Source: Anaerolineae bacterium
GTDB taxonomy: Bacteria; Chloroflexota; Anaerolineae; UBA4142; SHND01
Assembly: GCA_021463195.1 (NCBI GenBank)
Contig: JAJTXZ010000042.1
Location: forward strand, 1 to 41,349
Direction of reading: 5' to 3'
Length of the DNA: 41,349 nucleotides
Shown: in pieces, positions 1,668 through 41,140 of the stretch
Position numbering within the stretch: position 1 is the stretch's first letter
Layout: each line of letters opens with the position of its first letter
Notes under the pieces: generated by a model
Databases searched by the model: none
The model's input: only the letters and a program-made list of their open reading frames with translations
Told to the model about the DNA's origin: nothing
Translations under genes and position numbers: made by a program

Positions 1668-1763
1668 CTAGAGCCGATTCCACTTTGATTTGTGGGTAGA
1701 CCTTTCAGGTTTCCGAAAACCCGAAAGGTCTTGCCCCACAAACGAATCAGGAATTCGCGCTAG
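1668..1763. repeat. CTAG-bounded palindromic repeat, copy A
   Basis: This 96-bp imperfect palindrome begins and ends with CTAG. The inner hairpin pairs AGACCTTTCAGGTTT with AAACCCGAAAGGTCT around a CCGA loop, with one mismatch. The outer arms, CGATTCC...TTTGTGGG and its complement, also pair. The same design occurs at 21170-21266 and 41043-41140. It lies between the terminator of the Agl23-like gene and the start of the flippase-like gene. No protein is encoded, so it looks like a MITE- or REP-like element. Confidence 0.9.
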
Positions 1764-21169: not shown

Positions 21170-21266
21170 CTAGACCAGTTTCCGATTTGATTTAGGGGAC
21201 AGACCCTTGGGGTTTCCGAAAACCCAAAGGGTCTTTTACCTTGGACCAAACAGGAATTCGCTCTAG
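21170..21266. repeat. CTAG-bounded palindromic repeat, copy B
   Basis: This 97-bp element begins and ends with CTAG. The inner hairpin AGACCCTTGGGGTTT / AAACCCAAAGGGTCT has a CCGA loop and one mismatch. Relative to the other copies, one stem pair has changed on both sides (T-A to C-G). It forms the last codons of the YfhO-like gene and separates it from the GT4 gene. Excision leaving a single CTAG gives CTAGATTCTTGATGG, in which the upstream frame ends at TGA and the GT4 ATG overlaps it by one base. Confidence 0.92.
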
Positions 21267-38687: not shown

Positions 38688-39386
38688 ATGGCTCGCCCTT
38701 ATCATTGGCTCCTCTTTGACGCCGACGATACCCTTTTTGATTATCAGCGCGCCGAAGTGAACGCGCTGCAAGCGGTGTTTCGCGAATTTGAATTGCCGCT
38801 TGACACGCGCGCGCACGCGCTCTATCGCGCCTTTAATCACGAACTTTGGCTGCGCTTTGAAAAAGGCGAGGTCACGGGCGAACAAATCCGCGCGCAGCGT
38901 TTTACTCTATTATTCCAAGCGCTACAACAACGCGAACCACCCACGCTTGCCGAGCGCTATATTGACCATCTCGCTGAACAAACGACGCTTGCGCCCGACG
39001 CGCGCGAAACGCTGGACGCTTTACATACAACCTATCGCCTCGCCATCATCACCAACGGCATGACGCGCGTGCAGCGAACGCGGCTAGCGCGCTCGGCGCT
39101 CGCGCCGTACATTTCCGAATTGATTATTTCCGAAGAGGTTGGCGCAGCAAAACCCGCGCCCGAAATATTCGAATACGCGTTCGCGCGCATGGGACACCCG
39201 CGCAAAGACCAAGTCCTAATCATTGGCGATAGTCTGACTTCGGATATGCAAGGCGGCGCGCGCTTTGGCATTGATACCTGTTGGTACAATCCCAAGCATC
39301 AGCCGCGCCCCGCCCAGCCGCGCCTGACGCACCAAGTGCATGCCTTGCGCGAGTTGATTCGCTGGCTTGGCGCCAAGCCAGTCTAA
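38688..39386 (+). CDS. HAD-superfamily phosphatase, YjjG-like
   Basis: The protein has 232 residues. The four HAD motifs are LLFDADDTLFDY (nucleophile D11, acid D13), IITNGM near 119-124, the conserved lysine in GAAKPAPEIF, and IIGDSLTSDMQGG. The alpha-helical cap and DADDTLFDYQRAE start match the YjjG/YfnB group (pyrimidine 5'-nucleotidase type). It probably dephosphorylates a nucleotide or sugar phosphate. It sits one base after the asparaginase stop and four bases before the next ATG, so it is clearly co-transcribed. Confidence 0.9.
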   Translation: MARPYHWLLFDADDTLFDYQRAEVNALQAVFREFELPLDTRAHALYRAFNHELWLRFEKGEVTGEQIRAQRFTLLFQALQQREPPTLAERYIDHLAEQTTLAPDARETLDALHTTYRLAIITNGMTRVQRTRLARSALAPYISELIISEEVGAAKPAPEIFEYAFARMGHPRKDQVLIIGDSLTSDMQGGARFGIDTCWYNPKHQPRPAQPRLTHQVHALRELIRWLGAKPV

Positions 39387-39390
39387 ACTC

Positions 39391-41046
39391 ATGAACAAAG
39401 TATTTATCATCGGCCTCGACGGCGCGACGTTCGACCTCATTCATCCTTTTATCGCGCAAGGTTATTTGCCTAATCTCCAAGCGCTCATTGCCAAAGGGAC
39501 AGCGACGGAACTTGCTTCGACGGTGCCACCGGTCACCGCGTCGGCGTGGAATTCGTTCATGACCGGCAAGAACCCGGGCGGACACGGTCTGTTCGATTTT
39601 ATGCGACAGCGCAAAAATTCATACGACCTCACACCCATCTCCAGCCACGACCGCGACGGCAAGGCGGTGTGGGAAATCGCGGGCGACGTGGGTAAAAAAT
39701 CCATCGTTATGGGCGTGCCAATCACTTGGCCGCCGACGCCATTGAACGGCGTGATGGTGACGGGCATGTTGACGCCGCGCGGCGCGTCCAATTACACCTA
39801 TCCCGTCGAATTAAAAGATGAAATCGCGCAAAATGTCGGCGAATACATCGTCTATTCCGACGAAGTGTATTCCAAGGGGCGCGGCGAAATTTTCTTGGCT
39901 GCGCTCTGTTATTCCATTCAACAGCGCGCGAACACAGCCGCGTATCTTTTGCGAAAATACGATTGGGATTTGGGTATTCTCGTCTTTCCCGAAACCGATA
40001 CAGTGTGTCATGGTTTGTGGTGGGCATATGACGCGACGCACCACGAACACGCGCAAGAGGACGCGGCAAAATTCAAGCATGGCATCCGCGACATTTATCA
40101 AGCCATTGACGCGCGCATCGGCGAACTCGTCGCGACGCTGCCGAGCGACACGACGATTTTTGTCATGTCCGACCACGGGCACGGTCCGCTGCGCAATTTT
40201 TTGTACGTCAATAATTTTTTGAAACAGCGCGGTTATTTAAAAATCAAAAACACGCCCGCGTCGCAACTCAAAAATTTCGCGTTTCGGATGGGCTTGACGC
40301 CGCGCGCCGCGTACAGCATGTTGCTGAATATGGGTTTGGGCAAATTACGCCGCACAATGGACAAACGCCGCAGCGGACGCAGCATGTTGAAACGTTTTTT
40401 CCTTTCGCTCAACGATGTAGATTGGCAAAACACACGCGCCTATTCCATCGGTTACATCGGCGAAGTTCACATTAACTTGCGCGGGCGCGAGCCGCAAGGC
40501 ATCGTCGAACCCGGCGCCGAATATGATACATTGCGCGATGAATTGATTCGCGATTTGCGCGCGCTAAAGACGCCCGACGGCGCGCCGTTGGTCGAACACC
40601 TTTGGAAAAAAGAAGAAATCTACAGCGGCGCGCATTTAGCCGACGCGCCCGATATTTTGTTCCTGCCAAAAAATCTCGAAACGATTGCGTTCGGCGATTT
40701 TGAATTCGGCTCGAATAAAATCATTGAACCCTCTTACGGCGTTTCCTCGTCCCATCGCATGAATGGAATCTTTATCGCCGCCGGGCCAAACATTCGCCCC
40801 AATGTTCCAAGCTCCAGTCTCCAATCGCCCAATCTCACCGACCTCGCGCCGACGATTTTGCACGCCCTGAATTTGCCCGTGCCGCCTGACCTGAACGGGC
40901 GCGTCTTGAGCGCGCTTTTCACGGACGCGCGCGCCGTCGAGTACGGCGGCAGCGCGGCGGCAGAACGCGCAACGGGCGAAGGATATTCCCAAGACGAAGA
41001 GGCAGAAGTTATCGAACGCTTGAAAGATTTGGGCTATATTTCCTAG
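39391..41046 (+). CDS. Alkaline-phosphatase-superfamily enzyme (phosphodiesterase/nucleotide pyrophosphatase type)
   Basis: The protein has 551 residues from the ATG at 39391. A frame eight codons longer overlaps the HAD gene and is rejected. Metal-site and nucleophile motifs are IIGLDGATFDL (D10), PPVTASAWNSFMTGKNPGGHGLFDF (probable nucleophile T49), a mid-sequence FPETDTVCHGLWW, and MSDHGHGPLRN near 257-267. There is no signal peptide, so it appears cytoplasmic. Relatives split phosphodiesters or phosphates of nucleotides, glycerol-linked lipids or sugars. The substrate is unknown. The stop TAG is part of the CTAG at the left end of repeat copy C. It is the last gene of the plus-strand cluster. 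Confidence 0.88.
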   Translation: MNKVFIIGLDGATFDLIHPFIAQGYLPNLQALIAKGTATELASTVPPVTASAWNSFMTGKNPGGHGLFDFMRQRKNSYDLTPISSHDRDGKAVWEIAGDVGKKSIVMGVPITWPPTPLNGVMVTGMLTPRGASNYTYPVELKDEIAQNVGEYIVYSDEVYSKGRGEIFLAALCYSIQQRANTAAYLLRKYDWDLGILVFPETDTVCHGLWWAYDATHHEHAQEDAAKFKHGIRDIYQAIDARIGELVATLPSDTTIFVMSDHGHGPLRNFLYVNNFLKQRGYLKIKNTPASQLKNFAFRMGLTPRAAYSMLLNMGLGKLRRTMDKRRSGRSMLKRFFLSLNDVDWQNTRAYSIGYIGEVHINLRGREPQGIVEPGAEYDTLRDELIRDLRALKTPDGAPLVEHLWKKEEIYSGAHLADAPDILFLPKNLETIAFGDFEFGSNKIIEPSYGVSSSHRMNGIFIAAGPNIRPNVPSSSLQSPNLTDLAPTILHALNLPVPPDLNGRVLSALFTDARAVEYGGSAAAERATGEGYSQDEEAEVIERLKDLGYIS

Positions 41047-41140
41047 AACGAATTCCCATTTGGTCCGAGAGATGGGACCTTTCGGGTTTCCGAAAACCCG
41101 AAAGGTCTTTTCCCCCAGACCAAATAGGAATTTTCTCCAA
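41043..41140. repeat. CTAG-bounded palindromic repeat, copy C
   Basis: The left end is CTAG, which supplies the stop codon of the preceding gene. The right end is degenerate (CCAA in place of CTAG). The inner hairpin ACCTTTCGGGTTT / AAACCCGAAAGGT is a perfect 13-bp stem with a CCGA loop, followed by CTTTT, so it may act as a terminator. The outer arms AATTCCCATTTGGTC and GACCAAATAGGAATT also pair. Confidence 0.92.

Follow-up and report, generated by a model that had tools for sequence, protein, structure and literature searches.

Probable IS630-Type MITEs in an Anaerolineae Genome Enclose a 34-bp Palindrome That Also Occurs Alone in Other Phyla

Results

Three homologous palindromes in the window

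The window (the whole stretch of DNA analysed here, 41,349 nucleotides long) corresponds to contig C81 in the draft genome of an Anaerolineae bacterium, an assembly of 4.72 Mb in 143 contigs. It contains three homologous palindromes of approximately 97 bp, located at 1668-1763, 21170-21266 and 41043-41140 (96, 97 and 98 bp), exactly where a preliminary description of this DNA had placed them. In an alignment of the three copies, the mean column identity is 74%, flanks counted in. We compared their folding on both strands with that of 200 dinucleotide shuffles. Every shuffle was beaten in five of the six folds; in the sixth, the plus-strand fold of copy 2 (z -2.5), three of the 200 were not. 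On the minus strand, all three copies fold far better than shuffled sequence. Each copy encloses the same 34-bp palindrome, AGACC-N5-GGTTT-N4-AAACC-N5-GGTCT, which we refer to as the core.

Copy 1 (1668-1763, plus strand, subfamily A) has a duplicated TA at 1669-1670 and 1761-1762. Its parts are a left IS630-type end (1669-1696, plus strand), the core hairpin (1698-1731), recognised by folding and by the core pattern, and a right IS630-type end (1732-1762, minus strand). A native terminator-like hairpin (GGAAAGAG...CTCTTTCC) adjoins this copy at 1766-1802. Copy 2 (21170-21266, plus strand, subfamily A2) is flanked by two minus-strand genes, with TA at 21171-21172 and 21264-21265; one N5 position is unpaired in its core hairpin (21201-21234). 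Copy 3 (41043-41140, plus strand, subfamily A3) has its left TA at 41044-41045, while the right TA has decayed to CA (41138-41139), and the first base of its core hairpin (41075-41108) has changed from A to G. The gene at 39367-41046 has this copy inserted in its stop codon, and the copy itself supplies the TAG. The earlier statement that the palindrome encodes nothing thus holds for the element as such, but not for this stop codon.

The ends had been described as shared, in the form CTAG...GAATTCC. The left ends read TAGAGCCGATTCC, TAGACCAGTTTCC and TAGAACGAATTCC in copies 1, 2 and 3; GAATTCC is thus exact in copy 3 only, and the right terminus of copy 3 reads CCAA, so that CTAG is absent there. 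An Rfam search of the whole window gave no match above the gathering score, all others being far below threshold.

Element families, target site and empty sites

The element belongs to an abundant set of repeats, as the preliminary description had predicted. Over the 4.72 Mb we counted 167 occurrences of the central 14-mer GGTTTYCGRAAACC, 211 of the 34-bp core framework and approximately 78 (43 + 35) of the left ends of the window-copy family; the reversed control gave 0 in each case. BLAST finds the window element at no fewer than 40 loci. In five congeneric genomes, the same left-end pattern occurs 46, 15, 9, 4 and 3 times (control 0).

We sorted families from the cores and flanks listed over 0.77 Mb of the genome and at other loci. 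Families A, A2, A3 and E, which include the window copies, have the form TAGA.C..nTTCC..TTTGATTT..GGG ... GGAATTCGCTCTA and clearly make up one superfamily. The ends of family B are CTGGTGATTACC ... GGTAATCACCAG, and those of family C are CTATAGA..TTCAG ... CTGAA..TCTATAG. All of these families hold the core. Within the 0.77 Mb, it follows 35 of 40 A-type left ends; the remaining ones are nested, degraded, truncated where a listed stretch stops or, in one case, shortened. The window palindromes have the traits of miniature inverted-repeat transposable elements (MITEs): they are short, non-coding and of high copy number, with terminal inverted repeats and paired arms. We found no paper on Chloroflexota MITEs resembling the window family.

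Two further observations concern repeats in these genomes. In the draft genome that contains the window (G000), several contigs, with L011 and L031 among the contig ends concerned, start less than approximately 100 bp from a core, which would be expected of repeats that interrupt an assembly. A separate repeat family, made of GAGACTGGAGACT/GAGATTAGAGACT units in long hairpins, is present at L080, L085 and L087 of the same genome as the window, and similar units occur in sister genomes of CHL1, another member of the Anaerolineae.

What does the element duplicate on insertion? We examined 24 A copies in which both ends could be recognised. The left TA follows C or T in every one of them, the right TA precedes G or A in 23, and the inner G and C are constant. 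Only TA is therefore duplicated, within a YTAR target. One copy nested in an A2 copy (L074:1538) has exactly one extra TA. The constant 4-bp CTAG ends of the preliminary description dissolve accordingly into the duplicated TA, one terminal base of the element (G or C) and a preferred flanking Y or R; the apparent motif reflects target preference plus a single element base. In family B, on the other hand, the duplications are approximately 8 bp long (perfect at 8 of 8 positions in three copies and at 7 of 8 in three more), with a mean match of 4.9 versus 2.4 for mismatched pairs. A transposase other than that of family A is thus expected for family B.

Comparison within the genus, where all of the genomes are drafts, gives examples of empty sites. 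The window is syntenic with contig C4 of G002 and partially syntenic with other congeners. Copy 3 has an empty site in G002 (L334), where ATTTCTTGACGCGTCGCTTTTGGC stands against ATTTC-CTAG[element]CCAAACTGCGACTTTTGC in the window. Copy 2 is missing at the syntenic place in G002, G003 and G005. Copy 1 has no counterpart at the orthologous place in G005 (L337), while the adjoining terminator-like hairpin is retained there. Copies fixed at orthologous sites, the outcome that would have counted against mobility, are thus excluded.

An IS630-family element with matching ends

We searched for IS630-type DDE_3 genes across the genus and then inspected the ends of the elements that carry them. In the congeneric genome G005, a 1,027-bp IS630-family element flanked by TA (L345:1005-2031) contains an ORF with a helix-turn-helix domain (HTH_Tnp_IS630) and, in another frame, a DDE_3 ORF (E-value 3.7e-29). 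Its ends, TAGAGCGAATTCCACTTTGATTTGTGGG and TAGAGCGAATTCCTAATTGATTTGTGG, are identical to the MITE consensus at 26 of 28 and 29 of 34 positions; the left end of copy 1 itself matches at 26 of 28. A full-length insertion sequence with the same ends, which the preliminary description had proposed to look for, thus exists in a sister genome. This is the one genome with a complete matching element, and truncated relatives are present in G004.

Among the DDE_3 genes searched, the draft assembly that contains the window has no IS630 element or other transposase with matching ends. Its sole DDE_3 match belongs to an insertion sequence with other ends (TAGACAACTC). This IS630-type element, at L048:1382-2511 (contig C67 of G000), is itself inserted at a TA within the core hairpin of a B-type MITE. 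The lack of a matching transposase in this assembly suggests that the MITE family may be inactive there now. A fuzzy search for insertion sequences with B or C ends returned chance-like pairs only, and the ORFs between pairs of facing A MITEs in G001 (L137, L138), judged by eye, include no obvious transposase.

Taken with the copy number, the TA duplication at nested insertions and the empty sister sites, the IS630-family element of the congener bears out the suggestion that the palindromes are MITEs moved by an enzyme encoded elsewhere. Very probably, each window palindrome is an IS630 (Tc1/mariner-like) MITE in which two insertion sequence ends of approximately 30 bp surround a separate and older REP-like unit of 34 bp. 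The 34-bp palindrome would have taken the place of the transposase gene between these ends. By analogy with other IS630 elements, a DDE transposase would act in trans, cutting the MITE ends and joining the element into TA.

Structure and distribution of the core

The core is common to at least two other MITE families of the genome, with different ends, and stands alone in unrelated flanks in relatives from other families and orders. It is present in the genomes of 36 of 119 relatives, at 1 to 211 copies each (control 0 throughout). A scan of 84,980 genomes returned at least 113 core stretches; the taxa among the matches listed are Chloroflexota, Bacteroidota, some Geobacteraceae, Methylococcales, Calditrichota and Ignavibacteriota. 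In 25 of the scanned genomes we counted the cores and found 1 to 245 in each (control 0), with favoured N5 words per genome. Genomes with a single copy may represent chance, while those with nine or more cores do not. The papers on bacteria that we searched do not contain the core words.

Pairing of N5 was not required by the scan pattern; nevertheless, N5 is fully paired in 95 of 112 listed scan matches and paired at four of five positions in 15 more, over 35 N5 types, so that the two N5 arms covary. In 183 copies gathered under a requirement for pairing, the stem ends sharply, with the first flank position paired in 25%. Each arm is itself palindromic (ARACCY-NNN-RGGTYT), and the first and last bases of N5 pair in 88% of cases. 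We considered a strand-specific constraint on the RNA and set it aside: the loop has no detectable strand preference (TNNG versus CNNA on the gene strand, 21 versus 15, p = 0.41), and the mispairs, three G.U and two A.C, are too few to weigh. We also considered spread by viruses or plasmids and rejected it: the core occurs in 3 of 2.9 million viral contigs (control 0), and the one core sequence that we tried has no plasmid match. At sites L224 (L371, L380) and L208 (L375, L377), there are long-loop cores with a second small hairpin (GGCAACCAAAGGTTGC) in the loop.

Position and turnover of the core

With genes defined by a simple ORF caller, the distance from the preceding stop codon to the core peaks at 3-13 nt. 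Distances of 6-10 nt to the 3′ end of a gene make up 23% of cases versus 1% in the null, and 24% of intergenic cores lie between convergent genes versus 12% in the null. Part of this post-stop placement could come from neutral insertion where spacers are short.

We examined eight standalone sites of CHL1 in comparison with four sister genomes, with flanks mostly 80-94% identical. One site retains the core in three N5 states, each fully paired (GTCAG, CTAAG and CTAAA). A second site has it in three genomes and lacks it in the other two (ttcacaaAGATGagagg). Other sites have a different hairpin repeat in the same slot, and at L201 the native terminator downstream is conserved where the slot holds such a repeat. 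These comparisons show that sister species differ by gain and loss of the core, that N5 pairing is restored after change and that the core is not itself the terminator. Other repeated palindromes in the same post-stop slots of the CHL1 sisters (L386/L406, L398, L400), e.g., AGAAACCGGGTTTTTCTCAAAAACCCGGTTTCT and AGACGTCCGATTTTTCGGAAAAATCGGATGTCT, also have AGA...TCT ends.

If transcribed, the core would give the upstream message a 15-bp hairpin at its 3′ end. In E. coli, ribosomes stall at REPs that lie no more than 15 nt from a stop codon (PMC12306157). By analogy, the core could stall or recycle terminating ribosomes or slow decay from the 3′ end, and a ribosome effect like that of the E. coli REPs is plausible.

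Discussion

Could the palindromes be bidirectional intrinsic terminators that merely look alike? They are strong GC-rich hairpins near the 3′ ends of genes, they are enriched between convergent genes, and the A2 copies end in GGTCTTTT. However, T occupies the first and second positions after the hairpin in only 25 and 23 of 64 cases, with no T-run beyond, and the core, which has no U-tract, is not an ordinary intrinsic terminator. A terminator would not need fixed stem positions conserved in sequence, nor does it account for the TA duplication and the empty sites; moreover, copy 1 and L201 adjoin a native T-run hairpin that is present in sisters without the element. We consider this explanation quite improbable. 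It is likewise improbable that families A, B and C derive from a single element whose ends diverged and that they share the core by common descent. The same 34-bp core in all of them, and the unity of A, A2, A3 and E, are what such descent would give, but the B ends are unrelated and come with duplications of another length, and the core stands alone, lacking any such ends, in other phyla.

The sharing across phyla might in turn be an artefact of a pattern search over millions of hairpins, and some genomes with a single copy (some Flavobacterium, Algoriphagus and Methylococcaceae) could be chance matches. Yet the reversed control, likewise palindromic and of the same make-up, has no match in any of the 144 genomes searched, several genomes outside the Chloroflexota have 9-55 copies, each with its own favoured N5, and the N5 pairing lies outside the scan pattern, so that we regard an artefact as highly improbable. 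A more serious alternative, though an unlikely one, is that a RAYT (Y1 HUH) transposase mobilises the inner core, which would then be a genuine REP element. The preliminary description had offered a REP-type element as an option, and this partly fits the inner 34-bp hairpin, which had not been set apart there: the core is an intergenic palindrome with many copies, near stop codons, gained and lost between sisters. Of 119 relatives, 90 have Y1_Tnp genes, and the numbers of these genes and of cores show a weak correlation (rho 0.42). Nonetheless, we rejected a RAYT association on proximity, a core lying within approximately 1.5 kb at only 2 of 40 Y1 loci examined; three genomes with cores lack a Y1 gene, and 14 with at least three Y1 genes lack the core. 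Immediately outside the stem the flanking sequence already looks random, with neither a GTAG nor a CGTC tag.

It is tempting to propose instead, as a tentative reading that we hold at somewhat less than even confidence, that ARACC-N5-GGTTT-N4-AAACC-N5-GGTYT represents a class of intergenic unit, mobile or repeatedly regenerated, that has not been described before. Such a unit, present in several phyla, would settle just after stop codons, with four ARACC quarter-sites approximately one helical turn apart; it would be moved by some enzyme and taken up repeatedly as the interior of unrelated MITEs.

ERIC, the enterobacterial RU and the Correia (NEMIS) elements are small non-coding inverted-repeat elements that fold as RNA and duplicate a TA target. 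To our knowledge, no core common to unrelated families is known among them. Judged by their descriptions, they are among the systems closest to the window MITE (PMC2229807, PMC2759123). The closest described case is the pneumococcal RUP (Repeat Unit of Pneumococcus), which is an IS630-Spn1-related MITE, palindromic and with IS630-like ends as in the window; it is approximately 107 bp long, has approximately 110 copies and is over-represented between convergent genes (PMC3049150). It differs in sequence and in host phylum. The window family has a discrete 34-bp palindrome that is also found outside the MITE, and the passages on RUP consulted here describe no such unit. SPRITE (PMC3049150) is a short repeated intergenic hairpin like the core, but it has a uridine-rich tract that the core lacks. 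The core resembles REP elements, the GTAG- and CGTC-tagged palindromes, in being a 20-40-bp intergenic palindrome of high copy number, often less than 15 nt from a stop codon (PMC3733652, PMC12306157). In contrast to REP/RAYT systems, it lacks two of their defining features, the tag tetranucleotide and an adjoining RAYT, and its stem words are kept across phyla (PMC3733652, PMC12306157).

As a MITE, the window element is of a familiar sort, a new sequence family within the known IS630 MITEs. The core is less familiar, since one small hairpin is both the common interior of MITEs with different ends and a free-standing post-stop element in distant phyla. This raises two testable questions. Why do MITEs keep particular interiors? 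And do palindromic intergenic repeats that lack a RAYT have a single mobiliser in common, or a single function as translation ends?

Longer elements around the core were also seen in other genomes. Go_Eff_bin_125, the genome with 245 core matches, has a MITE-like family (CTTAGTGAACATCTAAAAATAACTTCCCG ... CGGAACTTATTTTTGGACGATTACTTAG) with the same 34-bp core at L157:6032, L171:2513 and L212:6013. In Saprospiraceae/Lewinellaceae (L142:4036, L175:3702, L177:4031), the core lies within a longer inverted repeat (GGACATTTTGGTTTC-core-GAAACCAAAATGTC) in elements of the Bacteroidota.
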